Shown piece by piece: positions 4,293 through 49,109 of a DNA stretch of 64,000 nt. A program made the position numbers and the translations under genes. The notes under the pieces were generated by a model that ran no database searches, had not been told where the DNA came from, and saw only the letters and a program-made list of their open reading frames with translations. The DNA lies in the NCBI GenBank assembly GCA_036971475.1, contig JBAIZL010000004.1, forward strand, positions 71,185,393 to 71,249,392, given 5' to 3'. Source of the stretch: Prosapia bicincta. Lineage: Eukaryota; Arthropoda; Insecta; Hemiptera; Cercopidae. Numbering within the stretch: the first letter of the stretch is position 1; the number at the start of each line of letters is the position of its first letter.

Positions 4293-5060
4293 CTTACTGA
4301 GACAGAACGTTTTCGATCGCTATGTGCCGATCTTCATCAGTGTCTTCTGCTTAGAGGTGTCGGGTCAAGCGGTGATGGTTTTAAAGGTAGGTTTTCGATA
4401 GTATCAAAGAGTATGTGCGATTTGTATTGTGTTTGATCGTTTAATATGTGTACTTTGTGTTTTTGTGTGTCTGTAAATTTCATATTGTTGTAGTGTGTTG
4501 AGATGTGGACCTTTTTTGTTGATGTGTAGGATTTCTAGGTTATGGTAAATGTCTGTGTATTTGTGTCCTGTTTCTTTTATGTGATTGTAAAATGTTGAGT
4601 TGGTGTTAACTTTTGGAAAGTTAAAATTTAATACAAATTCATGCTCAGTAAAAAATACGAGAGAATTTATAGCGAAAATACAAAATATAAAATTAACAAA
4701 TGATGAGATTTTGGTATCATTTGATGTTTGTTCTTTATTTCCTAGTATACCGTTGAACGAAACTTTAATTTTGTTGGAAGAATTTTTAATTGAAAATAAA
4801 ATTGAGAATGATAAAGTAAACCAATATGTTAATTTAGCTAGGTGTTGTATGAAACAAAATTATTTTTCATTTAATAATGAGTTTTATGAGCAAAAAGATG
4901 GTACAGCTATGGGTAATAGCTTATCACCTTTTATACCTGAACTTTTTATGAACAATTTTGAAAAAGAATTAAAAAATAAACTCTCGTATTTTCAAAAGGT
5001 ATGGGTTAGGTATGTTTTCTGGATAGTAGAACAAACATTAAATTCTCTTTGGATTTAAAG
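4293..5060. mobile_element. Broken PLE, minus 3' end joined to plus RT fragment
   Basis: Two PLE pieces face away from one another. On the minus strand 4590-4350 encodes the C-terminal end of a GIY-YIG protein (HIKETGHKY, HINKKGPHLNTLQQYEIY) and runs into a hammerhead-like terminus at 4345-4300. On the plus strand 4600-5058 encodes a reverse-transcriptase fragment: FDVCSLFPSIPL (catalytic motif A type), then QKDGTAMGNSLSPF (motif B), ending where the YVDD motif should be: WVRYVF reads into a stop. The head-to-head arrangement with a lost middle also occurs at two other PLE loci here. Not functional. Confidence 0.75.
4300..4345 (-). ncRNA. Hammerhead-ribozyme-like fold, standard core
   Basis: Read on the minus strand: stem I AGACA with UGUCU (5 bp), core CUGAUGA, stem II AUCG/CGAU around GCACAUAG with a 5' AG and 3' C, then GAA, stem III AAC/GUU with no loop, and C at the cleavage position. 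Loopless stem III is known for hammerheads in PLEs and suggests action as a dimer. Activity is untested. Confidence 0.6.
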
Positions 5061-7711: not shown

Positions 7712-7830
7712 CACTAAACACTTGTAAATGTTTACAAACTTGCCTATAGTGGCACTTACTTATATTTGTTGAGGACGGCCGTTTCAGGAGATGTGTCCCA
7801 TTGTCAACTCAGACCGTAATTCCGTACATT
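7712..7830 (-). repeat. Dispersed repeat terminus with variant hammerhead-like fold
   Basis: The stretch 7712-7770 is one copy of the unit that is tandemly repeated at 14390-14860 (ACTTGCCTATAGT...TTATATTTGTTG). It adjoins a fold at 7769-7812. A shortened inverted copy lies at 14875-14965. Confidence 0.6.
7769..7812 (-). ncRNA. Hammerhead-like fold with U3/A8 core
   Basis: Minus strand: stem I UGAG/CUCA (4 bp), core UUGACAA, stem II GGGA paired to UCUCC with one bulge, GAA, stem III ACGG/CCGU with no loop, C at the cleavage position. Core positions 3 and 8 are U and A in place of C and G. In the ribozyme structure these two bases pair, so the change is compensatory. Untested. Confidence 0.5.

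Positions 7831-9941: not shown

Positions 9942-10001
<60 letters not shown>
9942..10001. repeat. (TA)n microsatellite
   Basis: About 60 bases of alternating T and A, directly next to the palindrome starting at 10005. Confidence 0.95.
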
Positions 10002-10003
<2 letters not shown>

Positions 10004-10088
10004 TGTTTTGGACTAGGAGACTGACAGACTTACCTTGGTAAGAGTCCACACTGTAGTCTTGAAATAGAAACACATAAAAGCACTTAAA

Positions 10089-10128
10089 CAATGATATATT
10101 TCAACCACACAGTGGTCTTTGTCAATCG
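10089..10128 (-). ncRNA. Hammerhead-like fold, left arm copy
   Basis: Same fold as 10226-10265 in the opposite arm of the palindrome. Confidence 0.3.
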
Positions 10129-10225
10129 AAGAGAAAACACAAAAAGAAATATGAGAGAATGAAATAAAACAAATACCTTATTTATTTTATTTCATTCTCT
10201 CATATTTCTTTTTGTGTTTTCTCTT

Positions 10226-10265
10226 CGATTGACAAAGACCACTGTGTGGTTGAAATATATCATTG
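10226..10265 (+). ncRNA. Hammerhead-like fold lacking one core base
   Basis: CGAU/AUUG as stem I, a core UGACAA that is one base short (or UUGACAA with a poorer stem I), AG, stem II ACCAC/GUGGU, U, GAA, loopless stem III AUA/UAU, then C. Conserved in the other copies of this unit, but the core is defective as drawn. Confidence 0.3.
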
Positions 10266-10481
10266 TTTAAGTGCTTTTATGTGTTTCTATTTCAAGACTT
10301 CAGTGTGGACTCTTACCAAGGTAAGTCTGTCAGTCTCCTAGTCCAAAAAATCTAAATAATCTTTACCAACCAAAACTAACCTAAATATATATATATATAT
10401 TTGTAGATTATGCAACACTGTTTTCTTGTATACACTTATCACTTTCACTTATGTACTTAAACAAGAATCTTACTTGGTATT

Positions 10482-10529
10482 TATGCGAGTACTTTCAAAG
10501 ACTGGTTAGTGTCTCCATCCTCGGGCATA
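10482..10529 (-). ncRNA. Hammerhead-like fold at PLE 3' end (minus copy)
   Basis: Stem I UAUGC/GCAUA (5 bp), core CCGAGGA, stem II AGAC/GUCU around ACUAACCA, GAA, loopless stem III AGU/ACU, C at the cleavage position. The core has C at position 4 where hammerheads have U. Confidence 0.45.
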
Positions 10530-10587: not shown

Positions 10588-12060
10588 TTAACTTCTATTT
10601 TTAGATTCACTGCACCTGTGCGAGTTTTTAACGTTCGTTTTGGGGTTAATATTGTCTATTAGATTGAATAATTTATCGTTTTTTGATTTTATTTGTATCT
10701 GTTCGTTAATGATGTTATTTTTATTTTTATAAATTTCTAGTTGTTCCCAGATTGTCATTTTGAGGCCTTTTAGGACCTTTTTAACTAGGTGTACGTTTTT
10801 TAATGTGGGGAATGTGTGTTTGTTTTTGATTGCGTGTGTGGCTAAGTTTGAGTTATAAATTTCAGGTTTGATATATGCATTGAGATGTTCTTGATATCTG
10901 TCTTTTAATTTCTTTTTTGTTTGGCCTATGTACATTTTATTACAGTCTGGGCATTCGATTTTGTATATTCCGTTATTAAGTGTGGAACATATTTCTTCTG
11001 GTTGGTTTATTTTGTTGATTATGTTTCCTGTGTTTTTGTAGGCTATGTTAATATTATTATTTTTTAGTGTTTTAGTTATTCCTTTTATGTTGTATCCTGT
11101 GTAAGTGAATGTAGCCCATTTTGTTGTTAGTGGTTCGATTTTAGGTTGTTTTAATTTATTTAATATTTTAAATTCTAATTTATCTATAGTTTTTTTATTG
11201 TATCCATTTTTTTGGTATATTAATTGTTTTTCTATGGTTTTTTCTTCATTATTTAGAGGCAATTTTAGCATCCTGTATAAAAGTGAGTTGTAAGCGGCCA
11301 TTTTATGTTGTGGGGGATGGTTGGAGTGGTTTGGTATTGTATTAATGGTTTGTGTGGGTTTCCTATAAATAGAATATTCAATGTTATTTGTATTTCTGGT
11401 CAATGTCAGGTCTAGATAGTTTATTTTATTGTTTATTTCTTCCTCCATGGTGAATTGTATGTTAGGGTGTAAGTTATTGATTTCATTTAGAATGATGTTA
11501 TTATTTATTGCTTTATTTTGTGAGATGTATAATCCATCATCGACATACCGTATCCAATGTCCGTTGGGGTCGTGTGTTTTTATGGTTTGTGTGATTAATT
11601 CGTCAAGTTTTTGGAGGTAAATTTCTGATACTATACTTGATAGTGGTGATCCCATTGCTAAGCCGTCTGTTTGTTTATATATTTTATTATTGAATATGAA
11701 ATAGTTTTGGTTTAGTATGGTCTTTAGGCATTTTGTGATTTGGTTTGTGTATTTGGGGTATGTTTTAAGGTCAGTTAATTTGTTTTTTATTATTTGGATG
11801 GTTTCATTAATTGGTATATTAGAGTACATGTTTGTGATATCAAATGATATAAATTTGGTGTTTTTGGTTATGTTTATTGTTTTTAGTATTTCCGTTAATT
11901 CAATTGAATTTTTTATGGTGTATTTAGTTTCCAATTTAAGTTCGTGTTTTAGGTTTTTGGCTATTATTTGTGATATTTTATAGGCAGGTGCATTTTTAAA
12001 ATTTATTAAGGGTCTTATGGGATTGTTTATTTTATAAAATAAAGCAATAAAATAAAGCAT
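10588..12060 (-). pseudogene. PLE reverse transcriptase with GIY-YIG endonuclease, 5' truncated
   Basis: 490 codons open without a break. Order: RT fingers (INNPIRPLINF), catalytic motif A FDITNMYSNIPI, motif B QTDGLAMGSPLSS, catalytic YVDD (WIRYVDDGLYI), thumb region with FRKPTQT-type YRKPTQTINTIPNHS, then the GIY-YIG domain GIYKIECPDC, MYIGQTKKKLKDRYQEHL. PLEs use this RT plus nuclease to insert by target-primed reverse transcription. Full PLE proteins are longer: the N-terminal part is missing because the copy is cut off at the junction with the plus copy at 12060. All core RT and nuclease residues seem present, so it decayed little since insertion. Confidence 0.85.
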
Positions 12061-12122: not shown

Positions 12123-13064
12123 ATGGAGGAAGAAATAAACAATAAAATAAACTATCTAGACCTAACCTTGACCAGAAATACAAATAGCATTGAATATTCT
12201 ATTTATAGGAAACCCACACAAACCATTAATACAATACCAAACCACTCCAACCATCCCCCACAACATAAAATGGCCGCTTACAACTCACTTTTATACAGGA
12301 AGCTAAAATTGCCTCTAAATAATGAAGAAAAAACCAAAGAAAAACAAATAATATACCAAAAAAATGGATACAATAAAAAAACTATAGATAAATTAGAATT
12401 TAAAATATTAAATAAATTAAAACAACCTAAAATCGAACCACAAACAACAAAATGGGCTACATTCACTTACACAGGATACAACATAAAAGGAATAACTAAA
12501 ACACTAAAAAATAATAATATTAACATAGCCTACAAAAACACAGGAAACATAATCAACAAAATAAACCAACCAGAAGAAATATGTCCTACACTTAATAATG
12601 GAATATACAAAATCGAATGCCCAGACTGTAATAAAATATACATAGGCCAAACAAAAAAGAAATTAAAAGACAGATATCAAGAACATCTCAATGCATACAT
12701 CAAACCTGAAATTTATAACTCAAACTTAGCCACACACGCAATCAAAAACAAACACACATTCCCCACATTAAAAAACGTACACCTAGTTAAAAAGGTCCTA
12801 AAAGGCCTCAAAATGACAATCTGGGAACAACTAGAAATTTATAAAAATAAAAATAACATCATTAATGAACAGATACAAATAAAATCAAAAAACGATAAAT
12901 TATTCAATCTAATAGACAATATTAACCCCAAAACGAACGTTAAAAACTCGCACAGTGCAGTGAATCTAAAAATAGAAGTTAACGGTACACTAAGGTCAAC
13001 GGCAAATTCCACGCAGCTCGCAGTCCAAAACACTGTTCAGAATGCCCGAGGATGGAGACACTAA
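12123..13064 (+). pseudogene. PLE C-terminal half: RT thumb and GIY-YIG
   Basis: 313 codons, nearly identical to the C-terminal half of the minus-strand copy, starting after the YVDD motif. It keeps GIYKIECPDC and IYIGQTKKKLKD of the GIY-YIG nuclease and runs past the stop position of the minus copy because of small differences near 12955. Without an RT core it cannot move alone. Confidence 0.8.
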
Positions 13065-13087
13065 CCAGTCTTTGAAAGTACTCGCAT
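13042..13087 (+). ncRNA. Hammerhead-like fold at PLE 3' end (plus copy)
   Basis: Same fold as the minus copy: stem I AUGC/GCAU, core CCGAGGA, stem II AGAC/GUCU, GAA, AGU/ACU, C. Only the outer base of stem I differs. Confidence 0.45.
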
Positions 13088-14266: not shown

Positions 14267-14389
14267 GTAAGTGTGAAAATGTCTCATTTTATAATTTGTT
14301 TCTTAATAGTTTTAAAGGTATATGATTTTCAAATTATATAGCAAAGTAATTATTTCATTTGAAACTATATAGGTTAACTAAAAAAATTA

Positions 14390-14860
14390 TCATATTTGTT
14401 GATTCCATCTTTGCACATGAGCTACTAGTTTTCACTAAAACACTTGTAAGTATTTTACAACTTGCCTATAGTAGTATTTACTTATATTTGTTGATTCCAT
14501 CTTTGCGCGTGAGCTACTAGTTTTCACTAAAACACTTGTAAGTATTTTACAACTTGCCTATAGTAGTATTTACTTATATTTGTTGATTCCATCTTTGCAC
14601 ATGAGCTACTAGTTTTCACTAAAACACTTGTAAGTATTTTACAACTTGCCTATAGTAGTATTTACTTGTATTTGTTGATTCCATCTTTGCGCGTGAGCTA
14701 CTAGTTTTCACTAAAACACTTGTAAGTATTTTACAACTTGCCTATAGTAGTATTTACTTATATTTGTTGATTCCATCTTTGCACGTGAGCTACTAGTTTT
14801 CACTAAAACACTTGTAAGTATTTTACAACTTGCCTGTAGTAGCACTTACTTATATTTAAA
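14390..14860. repeat. Tandem repeat, five copies of 92 bp
   Basis: Unit starts GATTCCATCTTTGC recur at 14401, 14493, 14585, 14677 and 14769, exactly 92 apart. Copies alternate between CACATG and CGCGTG variants, suggesting that pairs were duplicated. The 3' part of the unit is the same sequence that ends in a hammerhead-like fold at 7712-7812. Confidence 0.95.
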
Positions 14861-14874
14861 TTAGTCAGAGTTAC

Positions 14875-14965
14875 GGTCTGAGTTGACAATGGGACACAAC
14901 AAATATAAGTAAGTGTTGCTATAGGCAAGTTGCAAAATATTTACAAGTATGTTAGTGAAAAATTA
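14875..14965 (+). repeat. Inverted, shortened copy of the 7712-7830 repeat
   Basis: It keeps stem I 5', the core UUGACAA and the start of stem II (CTGAG, TTGACAA, TGGGACA) but then jumps to CAACAAATATAAG: the second half of the fold is deleted at a CA microhomology. Confidence 0.65.
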
Positions 14966-28559: not shown

Positions 28560-30205
28560 GCATTTATGTTAATAAAAAAACATAATGTTTATAAAATAAA
28601 AAATTATCAAAATAAAAATCAATTTATATACAATTTAATAATCTAAAACAAAAATTACAAATTAATAACTTATGTACAATAAAAGCAGATAGAAGCAATG
28701 CTGTGGTGATAATAAACAAACAAGATTACATAAACAAAAATGAAAAATATATTATAGATAATATGTTTCTAGAACTAAAAAAAGATCCCACGAATAAATA
28801 CCAAAATGAAATGAAAGGTATTGTGAAGAATTCTTATGTATTATTTAATCCGGGAAATCAATAACATAAATGATAACCTTAAAATACCATTATTAAATGG
28901 TATTATAAAATTACATAAAATAAATAATCCAATTAGACCGCTTATTAATTTTAAAGGTGCACCTTCATATAAAATATCTAAAATTCTTGCAAAACAGTTA
29001 AAAGACAAAATGAACTTAAATAACATCATAATATAAAAAATACTTATCACCTTGTAGAGAAAATTAAAAATATAAAAGTAGACAATAAAAGCACATGAAT
29101 ATCATTCGATATAAAAGACATATATACCAATATACCTTTAATGGAAACATATAAAATAATAAAAAATAAATTAAATATGTTTACATATCATAAAAAAGAA
29201 ATTGATGAAATAATAATGTACTTAAAGTAATATTAAAACAAAATTACTTTTGCTATAATAACAAAATATACAGACAAGAAGACGGCTTGGTAATGGGTTC
29301 ACTGCTATCAAGTATCATTTCTGAAATATTTTTGCAATATATTGATGAAGAAATAATAAAAATTATTAATATGATAATGGACAATGGTATAGATATGTGG
29401 ATGACGGCCTGTACATTTCTACAAATAATGCATTAAATTTAGACCTAATAATTACCAAAATAAATAATATACACAATAAAATACAGTTTACTTACGAAAT
29501 AGAAAAACTTAATGCTATAAATTTTTTAGATATCACCATTTATAAGGAAAATAATAAATTAAATTTTACAATATTTAGAAAACCCACTCAAACAGTAAAA
29601 ATAATACCTAATCATTCAAACCACCCGTACAATCAAAAAATGGCATGTTTCTATAATTTATTATACAGAATGAACCGAATTCCATTAAACCCGATAAATA
29701 AATTGAAAGAACTAAACATTATTCAACAAATAGCAATACAAAATGGATATAAAAAAGAAACCATTAATAAATTGAATAATAAGATCCTTAAAAGAATGGA
29801 TAATACTATAAATAAAAATTATTATTCAAATAATAAAGAAATTATTTGGTCCAAATTCTTATTTACCGGTTATGAAATCAAACCAATTATAAAATTATTT
29901 AAAGACACTAATGTCAAAATAGCTTATTACACTAATAACACAATTAATAATATAATAAATATAAACATTAAAATAAATAAAATTATATAAACGGCGTATT
30001 TAGTATTAACTGTACAAAATGTCAAAAATGTTATACAGGACAAACAAAAAAGAAAATAAAGGACCGTTATAAGGAACATTTAAATGCATTTAAAAAACCA
30101 CATATTTATAAAAATCTAATCTTGCAACACACTGTATAGAAAGAAATCACGATTTTCCAGATATTAGTAATATGAAATTAATTAAGCACGTACAAAAAGT
30201 ATTCT
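28560..30205 (+). pseudogene. PLE relic, RT and GIY-YIG, frameshifted
   Basis: Almost the full PLE coding region, broken by several shifts and stops. In order: KADRSNAVVIINKQDYI (N-terminal part), IKLHKINNPIRPLINF (fingers), motif A region damaged at 29100, motif B near 29290, WYRYVDDGLYIS near 29390 (catalytic YVDD), 29397-29990 open to the linker, then NCTKCQKCYTGQTKKKIKD of the GIY-YIG at 30005-30060. It is the same broad family as the PLE at 10588-12060 but a more diverged member. After 30200 the tail TTTGAGCTTAGCTGGTGAGG matches the PLE terminus at 19400-19565. Confidence 0.8.
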
Positions 30206-32580: not shown

Positions 32581-32624
32581 AGTGATGAGGCTCCTTTCGG
32601 TCACTTGACCACTGTCGAATCACT
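32581..32624 (-). ncRNA. Hammerhead-like fold, minus copy
   Basis: Same stems as 34287-34330, but core UCGACAG, with the last core A changed to G. Confidence 0.4.
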
Positions 32625-33072
32625 GATTACTTTTTCTTAATTTTTCTGGTGCAGATGTTCGGTCCGTCGTGTTGGTAATTGTTGACGTCATATACGTTTC
32701 CTCTTGAGTCTTGTGTATTATGTTTTTGAATAGTATGTCTTCTGTATATGTTGTTTGTAGATTCATTAAATTGTTGTGTATGTTTTTGTAAATGTGGTAT
32801 TTTTCTAGTGAGTTTAGTTCTATTGGGTTATTATTTATTTCAAGTATGGTTAGGTTATTTTCGTAATTTGTTATTTCATGTTTATGTGATATTAGGTGTG
32901 CTGCAACATTTGATACTTTTGAATTTTTGTTTTTGAATGCTCTATAATGTTCTTCGAATCTTATTTTAAATGATCTGGTTGTTTTCCCTATGTAAAATAA
33001 TAAAAACAAACTAATACACAATAACGAAAAAAGAAACACAATAGATAGTATCATTACGCTAACCAAACACAT
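32620..33072 (-). pseudogene. PLE GIY-YIG C-terminal fragment
   Basis: Encodes YIGKTTRSFKIRFEEHYRAF and the following C-terminal region to a stop. Residues before this are junction sequence, not PLE. Nearly identical to the end of the plus-strand copy. Confidence 0.75.
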
Positions 33073-33160: not shown

Positions 33161-34291
33161 ATGGGATCACCCATATCATCTGTCATGTCAGAAATATATT
33201 TACAACAATTTGAAGAAATAATAATTAAACCTATACTAAACACACACAATATTTCACTATGGACAAGGTATGTAGACGATATACTTGTAATATACCAACC
33301 TACCATTCACAACGAACACATCATAATATTAAACAAACTAAATACATACAACGAAAACATACAATTCACCGTTGAAACAGAAACAAATAGAACAATCAAC
33401 TATCTTGACATCACTTTAAATATAAATGATAATAAAATAAAAACTACAGTATACAGGAAACCTACTTCCAACAACACCACAATACACTACAAATCTAACC
33501 ACCCCTGGACACACACAATTAACACTTACAGTAACATGATAAATAAAGCAATAAAATACACACAGTATAACAAACAAAAATTAAATGAAGAATTAGATAA
33601 CATCAAAAAAATAGCAATAGAAAATGGATACAACAAACACATTATAAAAAATATATACAATAAATTCACAAAAAAACCTAACCTCAACACAACACTACAA
33701 CCGGAACACAAAAATAATGAAAACAAAAAAATCTACCTAAAATATAAATACACCAATAACAAAATAGAAAAAATAACAAATATATACAACAAAGAATACT
33801 ACACTCTAACATACAAAGCAAACAACAAAATAATAAAATATCTTAATAACACAAACCACAAAACAAATTCAGAAAAACATAACCTATCAGGAATTTACAA
33901 TATTACATGCAACAACTGTATCGCTTTTTACATAGGAAAAACAACCAGAACATTTAAAATAAGATTTGAAGAACATTATAGAGCATTCAAAAACAAAAAT
34001 TCAAAAGTATCAAATGTTGCAGCACACCTAATATCACATAAACATGAAATAACAAATTACGAAAATAACCTAACCATACTTGAAATAAATAATAACCCAA
34101 TAGAACTAAACTCACTAGAAAAATACCACATTTATAAAAACATACACAACAATTTAATGAATCTACAAACAACATATACAGAAAACATACTATATAAAAA
34201 CATCATACACACAGATCAAAAGAAAGTGCGTGTAACGTCAACAAATACCAATATCACGGACCGAACATCTACATCAGAAAAATATCAGTGA
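33161..34291 (+). pseudogene. PLE RT and GIY-YIG protein, 5' truncated
   Basis: 376 codons open. Begins at RT motif B (MGSPISSVMSEIYL), catalytic WTRYVDDILVIYQ, thumb INYLDITLNINDNKIKTTVY and YRKPTSNNTTIHYKSNHPW, then linker and GIY-YIG: GIYNITCNNCIAFYIGKTTR, RTFKIRFEEHYRAF. The front of the RT, with motif A, is missing. The stop is followed at once by the hammerhead-like fold at 34287. Confidence 0.82.
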
Positions 34292-34330
34292 TTCGACAAT
34301 GGTCAAGTGACCGAAAGGTGCCTCATCACT
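34287..34330 (+). ncRNA. Hammerhead-like fold with U3/A8 and C4
   Basis: Stem I AGUGAU/AUCACU (6 bp, perfect), core UCGACAA, U, stem II GGUC/GACC with AAGU loop, GAA, stem III AGG/CCU with UG loop, C at the cleavage position. It overlaps the last codons of the PLE ORF. Core position 4 is C where U is expected. Confidence 0.5.
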
Positions 34331-34589
34331 CAAGGTAAAATTATTGCACTTAATGGCCACTAAAATGTCACTTTGTTAGGTTTGTTCATTCAAGTTGTTT
34401 AAATGGGCTTTTAATTTTATTTGTTAAGGATATATTGGGTACAATATTATGAATTTAAATTAATCCATCTAGGGTGAACCAAGAAAATTTGCAATGAAAT
34501 TAAAAAAGTAACATTCCTAAACATTAGTAACAGTAATAACAAATACATACACAAACAAGACTTAAACACACTTACAAATTAATATTTAT

Positions 34590-35655: not shown

Positions 35656-36715
35656 GTGAGAGACATAAAAAATTGTGAAAATACTACACATTTTTTCATT
35701 TTGTAAAGAAAAATAAAACATGAATTTAATAGAAGGGCTATCCAAAGAGTTACAGACATTTTCAAATAAAAAATTAACAATGTGAAAAAAGTGTTGTATA
35801 CATTTTAGAGGTAAATTCTTTAGATATTTGTCTATATAATTGCTCATTTAAATTAAGGCAATCAAACAGTGGCACAAGTATTTCAATTTCATCTGTATAA
35901 ATTTGCTATTTGTGATTTCAACCATTGATTTACACTTACATGCAGTTTGGGTTGAATATCAAAGCATTGTGTGGAGACTTGTGTTTTTATTGCTGGGAAG
36001 ATGTGGTATTCGCTCATCGCCAAATTTAGGCTGTATGGGGGATTATTGAACACCTTCCATTTAGTTGCTCTCGGATATTTTTGGCCTTATGTAGATATGC
36101 ATTATTATGAAAAAAAACAAAACCTTTATGCTAAGTATTCATTGAAGCTTGTTTTGTAAACCCCGCTTCACTTTCTCAGTATTTCATAATTCATCCCTAT
36201 ATTGTTTTGAAATTTTAATAATCATGAAACCACTAATAAAGTGTGTCATTTGTTTACATCACCCGTCCATCTTATTAAAAGAGGCTCATGCCTAGGCCTA
36301 TCATTGTTCATGGGCATTGGTTTGGCTATATTGAAAATTGTAACACTACCTCATTCGACTTCTACTCATTCCATATACATCACAAAGTTTGTAATGAATT
36401 TCAATTTTTTTCCAACAAAAACAGAACATAACTTATAAGTGAGTTTCTATTGCAGCACATATTTTAACAGTTCATGAAGAAAAAAGTAGCAGATAAATAG
36501 AAAAACACTAACACCTCTCGATGGTTACTGACCTTATGTAACTAACGCGGTAGCAATAACCCTCAATAATTCATCAATGTAGTACGTCAAAATATCTGTC
36601 ACTTTCTAGATAGGTCTTGCATTTAAATATGTTTATGTTTAACTCATTTTTAGGATAAATCATTATGTACTTAAAGTATACTGACAAACAATATTATTAA
36701 AAATATATTAATAAT
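35656..36715. other. Intron DNA, no gene seen
   Basis: Nothing recognised. Confidence 0.55.
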
Positions 36716-38425
36716 AAAATTAATTATATTTTTCCTCCTAATGTCAAATAAATGACTTTCATTACACATATAGAGCATTATGTAATCATGCCTTTTTTAT
36801 CTTATATTAAACTATTGATCTATGGACTCATACATTAATGGTCAATTAATTAAATTTTTCCTCTTATTGTCAAATAAATTACTTTCATTACATATATAGA
36901 GCATTATGTAATCATGCCTTTTTTATCTTATATTAAACTATTGTTCTATGGACTCATACATTTGATGGTCAATTAATTAAATTTTTCCTCCTAATGTCAA
37001 ATAAATGACTTTCATTACATATATAGAGCATTATGTAATCATGCCTTTTTTATCTTATATTAAATTATTGTTCTATGGACTCATACATTTGTTGGTCAAT
37101 TAATTATATTTTTCCTCCTAATGTCAAATAAATGACTTCCATTACATATATAGAGCATTATGTAATCATGCCTTTTTTATCTTATATTAAACTATTGTTC
37201 TATGGACTCATACATTTGTTGGTCAATTAATTAAATTTTTCCTCCTAATGTCAAATAAATGACTTTCATTACATATATAGAGCATTATGTAATCATGCCT
37301 TTTTTATCTTATATTAAACTATTGTTCTATGGACTCATACATTTGATGGTCAATTAATTAAATTTTTCCTCCTAATGTCAAATAAATGACTTTCATTACA
37401 TATATAGAGCATTATGTAATCATGCCTTTTTTATCTTATATTAAACTATTGTTCTATGGACTCATACATTTGTTGGTCAATTAATTATATTTTTCCTCCT
37501 AATGTCAAATAAATGACTTCCATTACATATATAGAGCATTATGTAATCATGCCTTTTTTATCTTATATTAAACTATTGTTCTATGGACTCGTACATTTGA
37601 TGGTAAATTAATTATATTTTTCCTCTTATTGTCAAATAAATTACTTTCATTACATATATAGAGCATTATGTAATCATGCCTTTTTTATCTTATATTAAAC
37701 TATTGTTCTATGGACTCATACATTTGTTGGTCAATTAATTATATTTTTCCTCCTAATGTCAAATAAATGACTTCCATTACATATATAGAGCATTATGTAA
37801 TCATGCCTTTTTTATCTTATATTAAACTATTGATCTATGGACTCGTACATTTGATGGTCAATTAATTATATTTTTCCTCCTAATGTCAAATAAATTACTT
37901 TCATTACATATATAGAGCATTATGTAATCATGCCTTTTTTTTCTTATATTAAACTATTGATCTATGGACTCGTACATTTGATGGTAAATTAATTATATTT
38001 TTCCTCTTATTGTCAAATAAATTACTTTCATTACATATATAGAGCATTATGTAATCATGCCTTTTTTATCTTATATTAAACTATTGTTCTATGGACTCAT
38101 ACATTTGATGGTCAATTAATTAAATTTTTCCTCCTAATGTCAAATAAATGACTTTCATTACATATATAGAGCATTATGTAATCATGCCTTTTTTATCTTA
38201 TATTAAACTATTGTTCTATGGACTCGTACATTTGATGGTAAATTAATTATATTTTTCCTCTTATTGTCAAATAAATTACTTTCATTACATATATAGAGCA
38301 TTATGTAATCATACCTTTTTTATCTTATATTAAACTATTGATCTATGGACTCATACATTTGATGGTCAATTAATTATATTTTTCCTCTTATTGTCAAATA
38401 AATTGCTTTCATTACATTTAGAGCA
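36716..38425. repeat. 127-bp minisatellite, about 13 copies
   Basis: The mark TTTTTCCTC recurs at 126-127-base steps (36834, 36860+100, 36987, 37114, 37241 and onward). Each unit contains TTACATATATAGAGCATTAT and TTTTTTATCTTATATTAAAC. Two linked variants exist, CTCCTAATG...TGAC and CTCTTATTG...TTAC, in irregular alternation. The last unit is truncated near 38425. Confidence 0.95.
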
Positions 38426-39125
38426 TTATGTCATTGTAAAAAGCATCAGGTAAACTAGGTGCATGACTTATATTGAAGATCAGTGTTTCATGAAATGTCT
38501 AGGGTCATTGTCCATGTATACAGATACTTGGATTTCTTAGAGAGAGTGTTCTCTTTTTTATATCTGTTCTTATACCATGCTATAAATATTCATGGTTTTT
38601 CAAACATAAAGTGTTTGACAGGGTAAACTGTCCAAGTCAGTGATGTCAGATCTACTATTTTTATAATAGAAAAATAAAAAAAATACAGTACTTATACTTG
38701 TACCTCTTACACTACTGTAAAACACACAAAATGGCTGCTGGAAATATGTCAACATATTCGAGGCACCTTTTATTTTCCAGTGATTCAGTATGTATTATAT
38801 CAGGAGATTAGAGACCTTGAAAAACTAGTTGGAGTTGACATTATGTAGGATAAAGCAACAACGACACCTACCATTCCCTAACTATAAAAATAAACTTGCA
38901 GTGCACGACTTATAATATGAAATTTTTAATTAATTATAATAATAATAAATAATTATAATATAATTACATTTTTTAATTATAAATTTATAACCATTTATTC
39001 AACAATAACTATACACAGCATTTACAAATCACAGACAATTCTTTAAATGATTTATTCATATTAAAATCTTTCATTAAACATTTTTTTTATGTTGAAAATT
39101 TAAACTCGGACACATTCTGTTTTAG
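38426..39125. other. Intron DNA, no gene seen
   Basis: Nothing recognised before the zinc-finger exon. Confidence 0.55.
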
Positions 39126-40439: not shown

Positions 40440-40442
<3 letters not shown>

Positions 40443-41645
40443 AACATTTTGAAGTAGTATATATATAAAAGGCACTTACAAAATAAGATAAATATATATA
40501 AATAAATTCAGTATGTAAAAAAATTACTAAAATATACCAGTAACGAAATGTAAACATAACCTAATTTCACTTGTGTAGAAAATGCACATGGCCACATTTT
40601 AGATCTAATCACAAGATTTTATATAAAAAGAAAAAAAAACACACAAATCACTATTTATAAGAAAATGTATTAGAAGTAATTGATAGATAACAATTTGAAT
40701 AGAACAATAGAACGATATAAATACACTTAAAACTTTCAAACGGCAAGCTAGTGAAATGTTCTGAAGTAAACAAGATGGGAGAACGAATTTGTGGAGTTGC
40801 GTGCGCATTGACCGGCAAAAGATATTCGTTTTAAATATTTCTCGTGGAGATATAATCTAAAACAGTTTGGGAAATAAGATTTAAATGCAATTGTTTTGCA
40901 AAGAAATTTAAGTGCAGTTGTTAAGAAGAAGAAGTGTATCAGAGGCGGTGAACATGACATCCGTAAAGCTGTTACAAGGAATAAACGAGAAAATAGCGGA
41001 AATTGACGACTTGGCCATTTTATTGCTAAAAAGGGAGCGTCAGTTAGTTGGGACAGAGCATTTGAACGAGGCAGACGTGTTTCAGAATTGGCTGTAGAAA
41101 TTTTATTTTTTTAACTGGTGCGGAAAGTGCAGTATCGTATTCAAATCATAATTACAGAATAACATTAAGCCAAATCATTGAACTGATCGATTAAGAAGAC
41201 ATTATTCAGGAAATTATTTAATTAGAAACCAAATAACTTGTAAAAAAATTTTAGCTTGTAAGAATTGTAACTTAGATATTTTTTTGAAAGTGCCAACTCA
41301 AATTTTATTATTCAAAATTTAGAAAACCCACCTATTAACCCGAGATAAGGAGAGCTCAAGCTCAAATTAAAGTAATTAAATCAAATTCAATTAATATTAA
41401 AATTTATAACTAAACTTCTTGCTGCCATAAACAAATTTTAGACTTAGGCTAATAAAGCTTAATTTTTGTAATTCTTTGTGGATGAAATAAGACTTTGTAA
41501 TTAGTAAGTGACTTTATAAAGGAAAATAAGGAATGTCATATTAAGATATTAAAATTTTTGTAACAAAAGCAGCATTGAATCGTTATTTCTTTTAACTTAT
41601 AAATTTTTATTAAGACTTATAAAAGTGAATTTACCAAATATTACA
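40440..41645 (+). repeat. 5' LTR of the Gypsy element
   Basis: 1206 bp, long for an arthropod Gypsy LTR. Contains a 47-codon frame at 40954-41097 and several AATAAA-type signals. Confidence 0.95.
40954..41097 (+). CDS. Small frame inside the LTR, function unknown
   Basis: 47 codons from ATG (MTSVKLLQGINEKIAEIDDL then LKRERQLVGTEHLNEADVF, ending NWL). It is repeated at 48418-48561 because the LTRs are identical. Upstream codons without an ATG are also open. The composition is protein-like (a possible short helix), but I recognise no family and cannot exclude chance; if the transcription start lies upstream it would be a leader frame before gag. Confidence 0.35.
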   Translation: MTSVKLLQGINEKIAEIDDLAILLLKRERQLVGTEHLNEADVFQNWL

Positions 41646-41670
41646 TTTGGCACACAAACGTGGGGCTCGA
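41646..41670 (+). other. Presumed primer-binding site
   Basis: Directly after the LTR: TTTGGCACACAAACGTGGGG. Position and the leading TGG fit pairing with a tRNA 3' CCA end; the tRNA is not identified. Confidence 0.5.
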
Positions 41671-41853
41671 TTATAAAAAAATTTAAGAATTAACCTTAAG
41701 GCACTTTAGATAAGATTATTAATTAAATATTTGTATTAATATTGTTTACTTTTCAGGACTTTGCAACCATAAGTCAATAATTTTTTTAATTTTCAAAATT
41801 TAAATAGCATAAAGGGGAATTTTGAAATTTTAGATAAAGAAATAAAAAAAAAA

Positions 41854-43635
41854 ATGGAATCTGAAACAGGTACATATAATTTAAGGGGGGAGAAAGCGAA
41901 AAAAACAGAAAAATTAGAGGAATATAACAAATATAGTAGGTCTAGGAAGGGTACAGCAATTGAGGAAGCTGCAAAAGGAAAATATGTGACATTAAAAAAA
42001 AAAATAAATGAAAAAGAGGAAGAAGCTACAATAGGCCTAATAGAATTGGAAAAAGGGACAAGCCTAGAAATACAAGAGACAGAAACGGAAGGCACAGATA
42101 TGCCTATAGAAGAGAGTGAGGTGGAAACCCAAGTAGATGAGGCTAGGGGATTACCACTGATGCAAACCCAACAGAAAAAGGGAAATAATGAGGGTGTTGA
42201 TTTAAGGAATATAATGAGGACTTTAATGGAAATGAGTGTAAACATAAATACAGGGAGAGAGGAAATGAATAGAAAATTTGAAGAGAGTAAGGAGGAAATA
42301 AAAAAAGAAATGAATAGAAAATTTGAACAGAGTAATGAAGAAATAAGGAAATTAAATAAAAATAGTGAGGAAATAAAGGAGGAAAATAAGGAGATGAAAG
42401 AAGAGATGAACAGAGGATTTGCCTCAAGTAGGTTGGAAATGGATAAGAAGTTCGAAAGCCTAAAGGAAGAAAATAGGAGAATGATAGAGGATATGAGGGA
42501 ACAGTTGAGAACAGAGAATAATGCTGTAATAGGAGTTATGAGAAGAGACTTAGAGGAGAAGATTAAGGAGAATTTTGAGGAAACAAAAGAAATAATAGCT
42601 GATGTGACAGAAATTAATAAGAAAGAGATAGAGAAGGTAGAAAATATAACAATACAGAACAGGGAAGAGTTAAGAGTTTTAAATAAGGAGATAGCGATTG
42701 AGAAAAACAATAATAATGATAGAATTGACCGATTGGAAACAGAAGGAAGGAGGAATAATGAGAAACAAGGGGAATTGACCCAGAGAATGGAAAAGGTAGA
42801 AAAGAAGGTGGAAGAAAGTAAAGGAGGAGAAGGCCTAAGGATCATACAAGTGTCTTGCGGGAATCAGGAGGAGATGCCCAAATTTAATGGAAGGAATGGT
42901 AACCCTATGGAGTTCCTCAAAAGACTGGATAGGTATGTGGAGAGAAAATTTGAATGTAGGACAGGGGAAAGATTTGAAAATGAATGGAGAGGAATCATAG
43001 ATAGAGCTTTGGAAGTAGGAGCGGCTAGATGGTGGGAATCAATCAGAGAGGAGGTGGAAGATTTCGCGGATTTACAAGATAGATTTATAGAAAGATACTG
43101 GGCCAAAGAAATACAGGAAGGCATTAAAGAGAGAATGGAAAATGAAAGGTATATTGAGGGAAATGGAAGAGCCAGAGCAGATTATTTCATAGAAAGAGTC
43201 ATAGTTTTAAAGAACATGACACCACCGCAAAATGACGAAGAGATAGTCCGGAGATTAAGCCGGCATTTTAATGAAAGGATACAGTTGTCAAGAAGGGTGC
43301 AAAATATAAAAACGATCCGAGAGATGGAAAGGATGCTGAATGAGGAGGACATAGAGGAGAGAAATAAGGAAATAAGACAGAGAAACAGGGGACCATGGAA
43401 TAGGCCTACCCCTAGAGAGGAACAGAATGGAAATAGATTTCCACCCAGAAGGGGTGAGGAAGGGATGAGACAGCAGGGAAATAGAAGATTTCCAGGACCA
43501 GGAGAATTGTATAGAAGGAATGAATATAGGAATGAAGGGCGGCCATATATCCAGTTTTTTAACAGAAGAATAGATAACCATATGAGGGGGAATGTTGAAC
43601 CAAGACCAGGGCAGGAAAATAATCGAGAAAATTGA
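41854..43635 (+). CDS. gag: Gypsy Gag-like protein
   Basis: 593 codons. Residues about 110-310 form a long charged coiled coil with repeated EMNRKFE-type units; residues about 330-490 are the retrotransposon capsid-like domain (FNGRNGNPMEFLKRLDRYVE, ARWWESI, FIERYWAK). The C terminus is rich in Arg, Gly and Pro (NRRFPGPGELYRRNEYRN), with no CCHC zinc knuckle; the basic tail may bind RNA in its place. The frame ends at TGA 43633-43635 but then stays open to TAG at 43748, overlapping the pol frame (open from 43737) by 14 bases. This suggests an original longer Gag joined to Pol by a -1 frameshift. An antisense frame of 350 codons here is a shadow. Confidence 0.85.
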   Translation: MESETGTYNLRGEKAKKTEKLEEYNKYSRSRKGTAIEEAAKGKYVTLKKKINEKEEEATIGLIELEKGTSLEIQETETEGTDMPIEESEVETQVDEARGLPLMQTQQKKGNNEGVDLRNIMRTLMEMSVNINTGREEMNRKFEESKEEIKKEMNRKFEQSNEEIRKLNKNSEEIKEENKEMKEEMNRGFASSRLEMDKKFESLKEENRRMIEDMREQLRTENNAVIGVMRRDLEEKIKENFEETKEIIADVTEINKKEIEKVENITIQNREELRVLNKEIAIEKNNNNDRIDRLETEGRRNNEKQGELTQRMEKVEKKVEESKGGEGLRIIQVSCGNQEEMPKFNGRNGNPMEFLKRLDRYVERKFECRTGERFENEWRGIIDRALEVGAARWWESIREEVEDFADLQDRFIERYWAKEIQEGIKERMENERYIEGNGRARADYFIERVIVLKNMTPPQNDEEIVRRLSRHFNERIQLSRRVQNIKTIREMERMLNEEDIEERNKEIRQRNRGPWNRPTPREEQNGNRFPPRRGEEGMRQQGNRRFPGPGELYRRNEYRNEGRPYIQFFNRRIDNHMRGNVEPRPGQENNREN

Positions 43636-43736
43636 GGAGACAGGAATTACAGAACCAATGACAGGAGCCAGAAGGAAGTAAATCAGATAGAGACAAGGAG
43701 ATGTGTGGGGACAAGGAAGGAGGATGGTGCACATAG

Positions 43737-46700
43737 TCAAACGGAAAACTAGAGAACACTGGTATCGTCGCCTTGGATCAGGAAAAGGAGCATCAAACAG
43801 AACAAATGAGGTTGCCAGTGATAAAATTTGATAAAAGCTCCTACGATAAAAATAAGTTAACTATAAATAATGTATTAATCAGTAGAAAATTTTTAGAACA
43901 AGAAGATGAGGAGAGAAATTATAATTTAGGAATTGAAAAAAAAATAATAAACCCAGAGATAGAGATTAAGATGGAAGATACAAGTTTACCAGCATTAATA
44001 GACACAGGCAGTAACGTAACATGTATCCAGGAGAAATGGATGTTAGAGAATAAAAATAAAATAGGAAAAATAGAAATCCTACCAATAAAAAATTTAACCA
44101 TTCGGACTGCAACAAATAAGAAAACTAAAAAGATAAACAAAATGATCATGGTAATAGGAGAAATAGGAGGGGTAAAATATCCGTTTCAATGCCTAGTGGT
44201 GCCAGGCTTATTGAGAAAATTTATTATAGGTACGGATATGTTGATGGATGTGGAGGCACAACTTGATTTTGGAAAATGGGAGATGGAGTTTAAATATGAA
44301 AACAAATTATATAAATCAAAAATGAGTGTAGATGGGCAGACAAAATTTAAAGGGGAGATGAATAATTTTGAAAATGAGATGGAGGAGGAATTGAGTTGTG
44401 ATGAACAGGAAGGAATGAATGATATGGAAAAATGGGAAGAATTTGAAACTTTTGGAAACCAGAGTCAAAATTATATTAAAATTGTACAAGAGGAGGGAGA
44501 GATAAAAAAAGAGGATATTTTTGAAAGAATAGGGAATGAAGAGGTAACTGAGGAACAAAGACAGGAGATGAGTGATTTAATAGAGAAGTATAAAGAAGTA
44601 TTTTCAGACCAGCCCGGTTTATGCACTGCATATAAACATAAGATTAAAGTTAGGGAAGATGTACCATTTTACCAAAGAAATTACCCAATTCCTACAAAGT
44701 ACCAAGATCAGGTACAAGAAGAGATAGAGAAAATGTTGAGGTTAGGTATAATTGAAAGAAGTACTAGTCCATATATTAATCCAATAGTCCCAGTCATCAA
44801 AACCAATGGGAAAGTTAGATTATGTTTAGATGCAAGAAAACTAAATGAAATTATAATTCCGGATTATGATTGCTGTAGAGGAATAAATGAGATTCTACAC
44901 AGAGCAAAGAGAGTTAATTGGTTGAGTACCATGGACCTCACTAACAGTTTCTGGCAGGTTGAATTGGAAGAGGAGTCAAGAAAATATACTGCATTCCAAC
45001 ATAGAGGGAAAACATACCAGTTTGTTGTTACACCCTATGGATTGAAAACATCTCTAGCAGCATTGGCAAGAGCTATGGACAGTATTATGAGGGAGGAATT
45101 AGAAGATTTCACCTTAATATATGTAGATGATATAGTCTGTATGTCTGAGACATTTGAGGAGCATAAAAAACACCTAGAAAAGATCTTCCAAATTTTTTTA
45201 AAAAACAACATGACCATTAAATTTGATAAATCAGAGTTCTGTAGAAAAGATATTTCATTCTTAGGGTATAGATTGACTACAAATGGAGTAAAAATGGATG
45301 AAGAGAAGGTTAGAGCTATATTAGAATTTCCCTCACCTAAAAATCCTCGACAGTTAAAAGGTTTTATTGGAATGGCTAATTATTATAATAAATTTATAGA
45401 AAAATATTCAGAATTTGTACAACCATTATTAAAATTATTATCTAATAGAAACAAATTTATTTGGACAGAAGAGGAGGAGCGAAATTTTATTAAATTAAAG
45501 AAAAAATTTTTGGAAACAAATGTACTTACTCACCCAGATTACCAGAAAACATTTTACCTACAAACAGATGCCAGTGAATATGCCATAGGAGGACACATCT
45601 GTCAGATTGATGAAAAGGGGGAGAAAAAGGCAGTAATGTTTATGAACCGCACATTAAAAGGAAGTGAAGTTAAATATTATACCACTGAGAAGGAATTACT
45701 TGCTATATTGTTTTGTCTGCAGAAAGCAAGACAGATCATCCTAGGAAGAAAAATTGTGATCCAGACTGACCATCAGGCCTTAACTTTTATTAAGACTTGT
45801 AAAATTTTAAATTCAAGATTGCATAGATGGATATTACTAATGCAAGAATATGATTATACTATTGAACACTGAAAAGGAAAAGAAAATGTAGTTGCAGACC
45901 TATTGAGCAGGAACCCTTGTGACAAAAATAAGTTTGAAAGAAGAGACCAAAATTCAGAATTACAAATAAATTATATAGAAAGAGTTATGGATATGGAAAT
46001 GTGTACAAAATTTAAAGAATTTAGTAAATTACAAGTAGAAGATTTGGAAGTTAGAGAAATAAAAGAAAACATTCAAAATTATCCTCAAAATTATAAAATT
46101 ATTAATAACTTAGTATATAAAAGAAATAGGGAAAGTTGGAAAATAGTAGTACCAAAGGGAATGATTAAAGAAATAGTGGGTACTTGTCATGAATATTACC
46201 TGCATGCAGGAGCTAAGAAATGTCATACTATATTATCAGAGAGCTTCACTTGGAAGAAAATGGGAAAAAGCATTAGGGGAATTATTAAAACATGTAATAT
46301 TTGTCAAAGAGCTAAAAATGTAACCCAAGGTAATTTTGGAGAGATGAAAGGGATCCAAGTGGAAAAACCAAAGGAGCAATTGTCAATTGATTTTATAGGA
46401 CCATTTCAAAGAACTGTAGGAGGCTATAAGTATTTATTACTAATTTTAGATGTATTTACAAAATTCGTTCAAATCTATAAATTGAAAAAGGCAACCACAG
46501 GGGAGGCAATTAAATGTTTAGAAAATTATATAGAAAAATTCGGGAGAGTAGAAAGAATACAGACTGATCATGGAACCCAGTTTAATAATAAGAAATGGCT
46601 GGAGTATATTAAAAATAGAGAAATGAAACCAATATTTTCTCCAATAAGGAGGCCACAAAGCAATATCGTTGAGAGGGTGAATAAGGAGATCATTAGATGT

Positions 46701-47243
46701 TTGAAAACATATTGTCATCATAACCATAGAGAATGGGGAAAATATGTAGAGGTTATTAACCAGGCAATTAATGAAATTCCTCATGAGACTATAGGATACA
46801 CACCTAACCAGCTACAACTAGGAATTCAGGATGAAAGGTTTTGGCAAAAGGAAATAAAAAATTTAGGCTGGAGTTCAAAATTAATAAATTTAGAAAGACA
46901 TTTAGAAATTGCTAGGAGTAGAATTAAGAAGAAGGCTCATAAGAGAGCAGAGAAATTTAATAAAACTCATAAAATAGAAGAATTAAATGTTGGGGACAAG
47001 GTATTAGTAAAAGAAAATTGGCAACCACAGGGTATAAGAGGTGAGATGGCAAAATTATTTTATATATATGATGGACCTTATGTGATCACCAAGAAATATG
47101 GCAAGGCGACTTATGAAATCAAAGATGCTAGAAGCAATAAAATTAGAGGAATTTTCCATATTAGCTTGTTAAAGAAATTTTATGAACCAAGGGAGGCACA
47201 CCATGGAGAATCAGATAAATTTCAGATAGAACAAATTAAATAG
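43737..47243 (+). pseudogene. pol: Gypsy Pol polyprotein with one in-frame TGA
   Basis: Open in one frame except for TGA at 45870-45872. Aspartic protease: ALIDTGSNVTCIQ with the DTGS site at 44001. RT: LIYVDDIVCM, YVDD at 45120-45131. RNase H: FYLQTDASEYAIGGH near 45550-45600, ending at the stop, which falls where a conserved residue precedes KGKENVVADLLSR. Integrase: H-H-C-C zinc-binding group near 46190-46305 (LHAGAKKCH, CNICQRA), catalytic D in LSIDFIGPF, D in IQTDHGTQF, E in SNIVERVNKE; then a GPY-type C-terminal module (FYIYDGPYVI). No ATG near the start, so it needs frameshifting from Gag. The part after the stop is 45903-47243. All catalytic residues are present; only the TGA breaks it. 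Confidence 0.88.
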
Positions 47244-47902
47244 TAAGGGAGAAGTCGAGAGAAAGGAAAATAACAAGGGATAATAAGATGGTAACAACAG
47301 GAATGACTCAGGATATAAAAGTATTAGGAGAAGGAAGCGAATGTAGGAGGGATAGATAACAAATAAACCGGAAATGACAATGGACCAGAAATGACTTAAT
47401 AATTAAACAAACACTTGAAAAAAAATAAAGAAATAAAAAATATATAAATTTAAATAAAATAGGAAGGGATGAACGAATAAGAACAAGGACCTAACCTACA
47501 AACAACCTAGACATGCTATGACTCGGTTAGGCTAAAATTAAGAAAAAAAAAACACTGTGTCAGAAGATAGATTATATAGATAAATAAAAAGACTTATGAT
47601 TGGAAAGATTCCATTCTATTAAAATTAAAATAAAGAAAGAAAAAGAAAAAGGTTATAAAATAGATTCTAAGAATCAGAAAATGATTAATGTACTAGATGT
47701 TAAGAGTATAAGAGGATTGTTGATTAAATGTTAATTGTTAATTTATTGTATTGTTAGGAGTTAAGTATATCATATGTAATTAGAGGGCAGCAGACAAGCA
47801 AGAAGGATAGAGTAAGAGTTTACTCCCAAAATGTGAAAATTGAGATTAAAAAAAAAAAGGAATTTTGGAATCAAAATTTTTTTTATCTAAATTTGGGGAC
47901 TA
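47244..47902 (+). other. Gypsy 3' untranslated region and polypurine tract
   Basis: Purine-rich, no frame. It ends TTTGGGGACTA directly before the LTR (47892-47902), the likely plus-strand primer. Confidence 0.65.
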
Positions 47903-49109
47903 TGTAACATTTTGAAGTAGTATATATATAAAAGGCACTTACAAAATAAGATAAATATATATAAATAAAATTCAGTATGTAAAAAAATTACTAAAATATA
48001 CCAGTAACGAAATGTAAACATAACCTAATTTCACTTGTGTAGAAAATGCACATGGCCACATTTTAGATCTAATCACAAGATTTTATATAAAAAGAAAAAA
48101 AAACACACAAATCACTATTTATAAGAAAATGTATTAGAAGTAATTGATAGATAACAATTTGAATAGAACAATAGAACGATATAAATACACTTAAAACTTT
48201 CAAACGGCAAGCTAGTGAAATGTTCTGAAGTAAACAAGATGGGAGAACGAATTTGTGGAGTTGCGTGCGCATTGACCGGCAAAAGATATTCGTTTTAAAT
48301 ATTTCTCGTGGAGATATAATCTAAAACAGTTTGGGAAATAAGATTTAAATGCAATTGTTTTGCAAAGAAATTTAAGTGCAGTTGTTAAGAAGAAGAAGTG
48401 TATCAGAGGCGGTGAACATGACATCCGTAAAGCTGTTACAAGGAATAAACGAGAAAATAGCGGAAATTGACGACTTGGCCATTTTATTGCTAAAAAGGGA
48501 GCGTCAGTTAGTTGGGACAGAGCATTTGAACGAGGCAGACGTGTTTCAGAATTGGCTGTAGAAATTTTATTTTTTTAACTGGTGCGGAAAGTGCAGTATC
48601 GTATTCAAATCATAATTACAGAATAACATTAAGCCAAATCATTGAACTGATCGATTAAGAAGACATTATTCAGGAAATTATTTAATTAGAAACCAAATAA
48701 CTTGTAAAAAAATTTTAGCTTGTAAGAATTGTAACTTAGATATTTTTTTGAAAGTGCCAACTCAAATTTTATTATTCAAAATTTAGAAAACCCACCTATT
48801 AACCCGAGATAAGGAGAGCTCAAGCTCAAATTAAAGTAATTAAATCAAATTCAATTAATATTAAAATTTATAACTAAACTTCTTGCTGCCATAAACAAAT
48901 TTTAGACTTAGGCTAATAAAGCTTAATTTTTGTAATTCTTTGTGGATGAAATAAGACTTTGTAATTAGTAAGTGACTTTATAAAGGAAAATAAGGAATGT
49001 CATATTAAGATATTAAAATTTTTGTAACAAAAGCAGCATTGAATCGTTATTTCTTTTAACTTATAAATTTTTATTAAGACTTATAAAAGTGAATTTACCA
49101 AATATTACA
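47903..49109 (+). repeat. 3' LTR of the Gypsy element
   Basis: 1207 bp; same as the 5' LTR save an extra A near 47970. The 47-codon frame recurs at 48418-48561. Confidence 0.95.

Follow-up and report, generated by a model that had tools for sequence, protein, structure and literature searches.

The paper cited here as PMC3088659 is Perreault et al. 2011, and the minimal type-I hammerhead ribozymes of Penelope-like elements (PLEs) are reportedly the work of Cervera & de la Pena in 2014 and of Lunse, Weinberg & Breaker in 2017. Covariation to U3/A8 in place of C3/G8 occurs in several natural hammerheads, such pairs have been proven active in vitro, a U10.1-U11.1 mismatch is tolerated, and single-base core insertions (A6a, U13a) occur, according to the accessible portions of that paper (PMC3088659). 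In a PLE hammerhead, the single changes C3G and G8C abolish cleavage and the double change partly restores it (PMC11167929, in part), and the role of PLE hammerheads has been called a mystery (PMC7761336, in part). Here we describe hammerhead-like motifs in a 64,000-nt stretch of Prosapia bicincta DNA (contig JBAIZL010000004.1:71,185,393-71,249,392, forward strand; hereafter the window) and in the 2.2 Gb genome of 361 contigs in which their relatives were searched, using family labels (F1 to F19) of our own. It is likely, in our assessment, that these are minimal type-I hammerheads at the start of the pseudo-long terminal repeat (pseudo-LTR) of PLEs and that several families carry U-A as a compensated 3-8 pair, with cleavage as a prediction.

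A sequence-only reading of the window had described a hammerhead-like fold with U3/A8 at 7769..7812. The fold was borne out as a minimal type-I motif, re-placed to 7770-7811 of the minus strand, which reads from 7811 to 7770 UGAG / UUGACAA / U / GGGA CACAUC UCCU / GAA / ACGGCCGU / C / CUCA (family F1). Stem I pairs 7811-7808 with 7773-7770 (UGAG/CUCA), the core occupies 7807-7801 with position 3 at 7807 and position 8 at 7802, stem II (7799-7796/7789-7786) closes the loop 7795-7790, and GAA (7785-7783) is followed by a palindromic stem III (7782-7775) and by C17 at 7774, 3' of which cleavage is predicted. Stem I, core, stem II, GAA, stem III and C had all been recognized in that reading; the extra U (U9a, 7800) that separates A9 from the first pair of stem II had been missed. 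The window copy has a G-U pair at 10.1-11.1, where genome copies carry C at 11.1 in 49/60 cases and U in 11/60; the commonest F1 stem II in the genome is GGGA-CACAUC-UCCC, so that stem II is 4 bp long and the preceding U is unpaired.

The same double change had been claimed at 34287-34330, and it is present there together with U4C and, as in F1, a U at 9a (family F2; AGUGAU / UCGACAA / U / GGUC AAGU GACC / GAA / AGGUGCCU / C / AUCACU). Stem I of this motif is formed by 34287-34292/34325-34330, C17 is at 34324, and the motif starts 2 bases ahead of the stop codon of the open reading frame (ORF) at 33161-34291, with the TGA (34289-34291) inside stem I. Sequence complementarity gives a three-way junction with stems I, II and III in type-I order. 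Neither F1 (UUGACAA) nor F2 (UCGACAA) has the core C3 U4 G5 A6 N7 G8 A9, and both are classed as variant rather than canonical hammerheads because C3 and G8 are both altered, with U4C in addition in F2; the 3-8 pair is still Watson-Crick. G12 A13 A14, A15.1-U16.1 and H17 are present, GAAA, the A..U pair and a base other than G at 17 being required by the scanner, and across 60 F1 copies positions 13 and 14 are unaltered and position 12 is kept in 56.

The scan was blind to the bases at positions 3, 4, 7 and 8 and allowed 0 or 1 inserted base. It required G5, A6, A9 and GAAA, a base other than G at 17, a stem III in the form of a short palindrome with A15.1-U16.1 as its closing pair, and no fewer than 4 bp in each of stems I and II. 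It yielded five motifs in the window (4300-4345, 7770-7811, 10482-10529, 13042-13087 and 34287-34330), compared with a mean of 0.05 matches per window in 100 first-order Markov windows and 0.081 in 1000 second-order windows, among which 925 had no match, 69 had one and 6 had two. These counts support a hammerhead-like architecture far above chance in the window, and across the four window families the sequence of the stems varies and pairing holds in each. An earlier scan, in which loops could be long and stems had to be unbroken, had missed the motif and given noise. All five motifs have exactly one extra base after A9, and the same departure from the canonical rule of no base between A9 and 10.1-11.1 was found in 74/74 scanned copies when 0 to 2 bases were allowed, C3/G8 families included. 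Laxer rules (stem II of 3 bp, 0-4 bases) returned three other matches with 2 or 3 extra bases (L084, L076 and window 51243), all of which are close to or at the level of noise or lie in a different register.

The sequence-only reading had taken U3/A8 to be a paired double change that recurs in more than one family, and both points are supported; the covariation extends past that reading, in that C3/G8 families occur beside U3/A8 families. Among 74 distinct scanned copies in loci fetched for other reasons, mostly with F1 and F2 queries, 60 have U-A at positions 3 and 8, 13 have C-G, one has G-A, and none has C-A or U-G; 57 of the U-A copies belong to F1 or F2 by label, one (L048) to F1 by eye, and two to a third family (UUGAAAA, L064). 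Within F1, 60 gapless copies comprise 58 U-A, one A-A and one G-A, and within F2 both U3 and A8 are kept in 29/30 copies, a deletion having removed the 5' half in the remaining one (L067). Because each of these families descends from a U-A founder, copies within a family do not show the switch, which is visible in the comparison between families. Genome-wide pattern counts, with patterns made up of the core, a T at 9a, the first stem II pair and GAAA and leaving aside stems I and III, gave 77,541 matches for C3/G8 (443 for the reversed-pattern control), 24,186 for U3/A8 (2,273) and 4,534 for C3/A8 (663). Both paired classes thus exceed their controls, by ~175x for C3/G8 and ~11x for U3/A8, and C3/A8, the one mismatched class counted, is much rarer than either.

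From the listings, 20 U3/A8, 16 C3/G8 and 4 C3/A8 loci were fetched for variety, and a scan that asked for 3 bp or more in stem I found the motif in 6/20, 9/16 and 1/4 of them, respectively, loci failing at least one stem rule not being counted. Clean U3/A8 sets besides F1 and F2 are F6 (GCUAAU/AUUAGC), F8 (GGAG/CUCC, stem I of 3 bp only), F9 (GCUGAU/AUCAGC) and F9b (GCCGAU/AUCGGC); F10 (GCUGG/CCGGC) has a weak stem I, and the clean C3/G8 sets include F11 to F15 and F19. The U3/A8 sets F6 and F9 have stem III AAGCUU and a similar loop in common with the C3/G8 sets F5 and F13, a likeness that looks like a recent paired switch. A further 24 evenly placed stretches (66 kb in total) contained two hammerhead-like copies, a C-G and a U-A, when the rules were relaxed; one of the two also passed the strict rules. 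A tally of ten representatives (6 U-A, 4 C-G, no mismatch; hypergeometric 0.0048) was not blind, owing to F8, F9 and F9b, and is not used as evidence. A satellite-like array (G000:C4:442958-446715, L137) contains 18 listed matches ~190-250 bases apart with the same C3/G8 core in each; stem II is 3 bp in the three copies within L137, and the arrangement is that of a retrozyme-like tandem repeat.

Additional evidence on the number of switches comes from a tree of reverse transcriptase (RT) and endonuclease sequences, built from few, partial, query-anchored pieces with families assigned to ORFs by position. Two short L053 rows (<80 columns) were left out of the tree, as was the fragment at 4600, for which there was no usable match. 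F1 (L052, U-A) groups with F4 (L050, C-G) with support 0.949, F3 (C-G) groups with the fragment at 29397 with support 0.999, and F2 (U-A) stands apart. Because the U-A families F1 and F2 are not sisters, the tree gives moderate evidence, under any rooting, that the 3-8 pair switched at least twice. The two families had been called unrelated, which does not hold: both are PLEs, and over 220 residues the RT/endonuclease piece beside F1 in L052 shares 36% identity with the F2 ORF.

PLE-like sequence adjoins four of the five scanned window motifs, the exception being F1 at 7770, which has no adjoining PLE ORF within the window. F1 is linked to PLEs because PLE pieces precede F1 motifs in the genome copies L052 and L053, stopping ~150 and ~90 bases ahead of the motif; the F1-linked ORF pieces are broken, and F1 motifs occur on both strands in 18/39 loci. 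A 92-nt tandem array at 14300..14943 consists of the F1 pseudo-LTR/downstream repeat, with four copies 84-86% like 7716-7772 and a fifth 79%; we found no hammerhead-like motif in it by blind scan, and half a hammerhead motif adjoins it at ~14870-14895.

The F2 elements are better preserved. Searching the genome with the F2 ORF protein gave 100,528 first-look candidates; among the 109 matches listed at at least 94% identity, 7 contain a stop and in 102 the matched stretch is open. The F2 motif pattern matches 46 times in the 30 fetched F2 loci, in one case only partially. In two full-length elements (L108 and L109), a hammerhead lies at each end of the ORF, the 5' and 3' copies being in direct orientation at 2360/5051 and 2174/4885 and thus 2,691 and 2,711 bases apart, and with these copies as markers both loci have direct pseudo-LTRs around the ORF, as expected of PLEs. 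The stop-to-stop frames between the direct hammerheads are 896 codons (L108) and 868 codons (L109), with the first ATG after 42 and 7 codons, and each locus has one additional inverted hammerhead copy, as is often seen in PLEs. The upstream and downstream hammerheads of one element have a loop II variant in common, AAUU in L108 (2360-5094) and AAC in L109 (2174-4927), as would be expected if both pseudo-LTRs had been copied from one template. A protein search with the F2 ORF returned 20 relatives, two of which (P0010 and P0011) carry both PF00078 and PF01541; the organism names Onthophagus (a beetle), Eurosta (a fly) and Liolophura (a chiton) stand on three of the 20. No PLE relatives were found in viral contigs by tblastn.

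This arrangement suggests how the motif might act. Cleavage 3' of C17 at both ends would cut a read-through transcript into a unit-length RNA of ~2.7 kb with a 5'-OH end. Going by published work on PLEs, the short palindromic stem III could allow two copies to pair and cut as a dimer, or an element protein could assist, and base 9a is probably a bulge that separates A9 from stem II. A further-reaching proposal, that U3-A8 and a bulged 9a together make up an alternative active core which evolved repeatedly from C3-G8 through paired switches and serves to process element copies in the tens of thousands, is put forward tentatively, as a possibility somewhat short of an even chance.

Several observations weigh against cleaving, compensated hammerheads. 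For F1, 106/2,520 motif cells differ in 60 copies compared with 52/1,540 flank cells in 55, five flanks that were too divergent or short having been dropped in a way that favours the flank; with no excess conservation, the claim that F1 is still under selection is weakened, and within-family F1 conservation was rejected as evidence of selection. The most altered parts of F1 are the 3' strand of stem II and C17. For F2, 26 differences in 1,291 motif cells (0.020) place the motif between coding sequence overall (0.0159) and third codon positions (0.0281), with the next 60 bases at 0.0398, in a set of 30 copies that is biased as the best protein matches; that 13 of the 26 differences are confined to two loop-II sites counts in favour of the main reading. 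Folding energies of four copies are unremarkable (z = 0.57, 0.64, -0.70 and -0.37) and were rejected as evidence for the motif, and the complete hammerhead is the minimum-free-energy fold in none of the four (stems I and II form in 34283-34334, stem II in L009). Rfam hammerhead models gave no match at gathering score or at E<=10, canonical-core PLE copies included. In addition, U4C, which F2 carries, considerably lowers activity in vitro, yet sufficed for viroid infectivity (PMC3088659, in part), and for a PLE hammerhead, cleavage did not occur without protein in the assay used and was not needed for insertion in vitro (PMC11167929, in part).

The genome counts have weaknesses of their own. 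Independent variation of positions 3 and 8 had been named in the sequence-only reading as what would tell against it; the rarity of C3/A8 beside both paired classes answers this in part, the comparison covering C3/G8, U3/A8 and one of the two mismatched classes. The patterns contain 9a by construction and cannot show a state without it, and F8, F9, F9b and F10, found through the U3/A8 pattern, are excluded from the blind tally. Visual inspection of the ~100 listed C3/A8 matches shows many to be isolated altered copies of C3/G8 families or of F1. A recurrent C3/A8 group makes up 8 of the ~100 listed places, all on C8, and its sole fetched copy (L142; G000:C8 ~52.60-56.36 Mb) fails the stem scan and is without complete hammerhead stems. 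One C3/A8 copy (L149) keeps all stems, so that copies with a single change do exist.

Some of these points would suit dead relics, in which C3U and G8A were two ordinary transitions in a founder whose descendants were amplified without a working ribozyme, as the broken F1-linked ORF pieces, an F1 motif no better conserved than its flank and the published dispensability of cleavage for insertion might indicate. We nevertheless regard this as unlikely: the stems, GAAA, A15.1-U16.1 and C17 are kept in both U3/A8 window families despite different stem sequences, F2 frames are largely open with the motif at both ends of two full-length loci, the mismatched C3/A8 state is rare beside the two paired states, and the tree has at least two switches. 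Taken as a whole, the between-family comparison supports U3/A8 as a compensated state reached at least twice, rather than as random decay.

Less likely again is that the fold persists because it serves a different function (protein binding, priming of the RT or template jumps from one pseudo-LTR to another, for example), with cleavage incidental or lost. The position of the motif at the ORF/pseudo-LTR boundary and the stop codon held in F2 stem I would fit such a function, as would insertion in vitro without cleavage in the published PLE. The catalytic core of the hammerhead includes position 17, GAAA and the 3-8 pair, whose upkeep would not be predicted from binding alone, an argument qualified by the fact that position 17 is among the more variable F1 sites (6/60 changed). 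Finally, the idea that a loosely defined motif was matched by chance in AT-rich DNA, which ordinary folding energies and a short core might seem to allow, is extremely improbable, being refuted by the Markov windows, which never gave more than 2 matches where the window has 5, and by the reversed-pattern genome counts.

Standard searches had been expected to miss the motif on account of U3/A8. Rfam does miss it, and the attribution to U3/A8 is not supported: canonical CUGAUGA PLE motifs also went without an Rfam match, both at 4300-4345 in the window and in 4/9 tested loci (L007, L050, L053 and L064). The minimal stem III and the extra base 9a appear likelier causes. A genome search with RF00163 also gave no match, in a run that scored 73 of 238,461 candidates and likewise found nothing in 14 control genomes, and is uninformative.

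The hammerhead-like motifs of the window and the PLE sequences beside them are collected in Table 1. The second F2 copy was missed by the scanner because of its A9G change. In the ORF at 10588..12060, RVT_1 scores above its Pfam cut-off and GIY-YIG slightly below. The ORF piece at 33161..34291 has no Pfam match, and no hammerhead-like motif was found by blind scan beside the fragment at 29397..29990.

Table 1. Hammerhead-like motifs and PLE sequences in the window
Feature	Position	Strand	Basis or context
Hammerhead-like motif, family F1 (U3/A8, extra U9a)	7770..7811	-	sequence, blind scan, genome copies
Hammerhead-like motif, family F2 (U3/A8, U4C, U9a)	34287..34330	+	sequence, blind scan, genome copies
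Second F2 copy (A9 to G, one stem III base altered)	32581..32624	-	inverted relative to 34287 copy; L054 minus
Hammerhead-like motif, family F3, core CCGAGGA (C3/G8, U4C), U9a	13042..13087	+	blind scan
Hammerhead-like motif, family F3 (core CCGAGGA)	10482..10529	-	blind scan; downstream of PLE ORF 10588-12060 (-)
Hammerhead-like motif, family F4, canonical core CUGAUGA (C3/G8), extra A9a	4300..4345	-	blind scan; upstream of and inverted to RT fragment at 4600
PLE ORF, C-terminal part, YIG-containing endonuclease-like stretch (by eye)	33161..34291	+	ORF; relatives
Inverted partial copy of F2 PLE ORF (3' end)	32620..33072	-	ORF; inverted repeat I2
PLE ORF (RVT_1 47.9 bits; GIY-YIG 20.8 bits, cut-off 22.6)	10588..12060	-	Pfam search
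Inverted copy of PLE 10588-12060, C-terminal part	12123..13064	+	ORF, repeat comparison
PLE-like RT fragment (RVT_1 36.8 bits)	4600..5058	+	Pfam search
Decayed PLE fragment, grouped with F3 in tree	29397..29990	+	ORF, tree

The window also contains a long terminal repeat (LTR) retrotransposon at 40440-48267, with repeat pieces of 67 and 300 bases (40440-40803 being 100% identical to 47903-48267) and gag-like, protease-RT-RNaseH and integrase ORFs, which appears to be a young Ty3-type insertion. A 127-nt tandem array at 36712-38535 has inner copies 93-99% alike and no hammerhead by the scanner. The inverted repeat at 9996-10358 has 180-nt arms that are 98% complementary and 3 bases apart, and its sub-threshold Rfam matches to miRNA precursors most likely come from the hairpin alone. 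At 59343-59760 and 61209-61790 lie a two-copy 209-nt tandem repeat and a separate fragment with a zf-RVT and a weak RNase H match.

Across its many PLE families, one genome thus seems to hold both paired 3-8 states, and the mismatched class that was counted is much rarer. How tolerant the core is, and what PLE hammerheads do, could then be approached by comparison and not through mutants alone. As Rfam missed every PLE hammerhead tried, canonical ones included, the numbers reported for other animal genomes may be underestimates. If the alternative core were indeed active, these families would provide a very large natural set on how the 3-8 pair and 9a tune catalysis.

Compared with known systems, the variants of PMC3088659 have the same double change from C3/G8 to U3/A8 as the motifs described here; there they are rare examples, whereas here the change characterizes entire PLE families and its pattern matches number in the tens of thousands, and section 8 of that paper mentions no insertion at 9a, which is present here. 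Poseidon PAc of Anolis (PMC11167929, in part) likewise has a PLE hammerhead at the ORF/pseudo-LTR boundary, with a 3-8 pair tested by exchange; that pair is the canonical C3/G8 and the hammerhead lies at the ORF start, whereas stem I of the downstream F2 copy spans the stop codon. The minimal type-I PLE hammerheads, compared through portions of citing papers (PMC7761336, PMC6155905, PMC6466107), resemble ours in their pseudo-LTRs, minimal or missing stem III, tandem copies and proposed dimer cleavage, and differ in that here the 3-8 pair is U-A in several families and one base follows A9. The pDo500 satellite hammerheads of Dolichopoda cave crickets (PMC2837043) are, as here, insect repeat hammerheads with compensatory stem changes; the accessible part of that paper mentions no U3/A8 family, such as is present here. 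Among the titles and beginnings of abstracts listed in the literature searches, none mentions a PLE hammerhead with U3/A8 or such a bulge, and Cervera 2014 and Lunse 2017 may describe either. As far as the literature consulted extends, then, this kind of hammerhead and the U3/A8 swap are already known, and what is new is the fixation of U3/A8 in several high-copy PLE families, its apparently repeated switching, and the presence of 9a in every copy found by blind scan.
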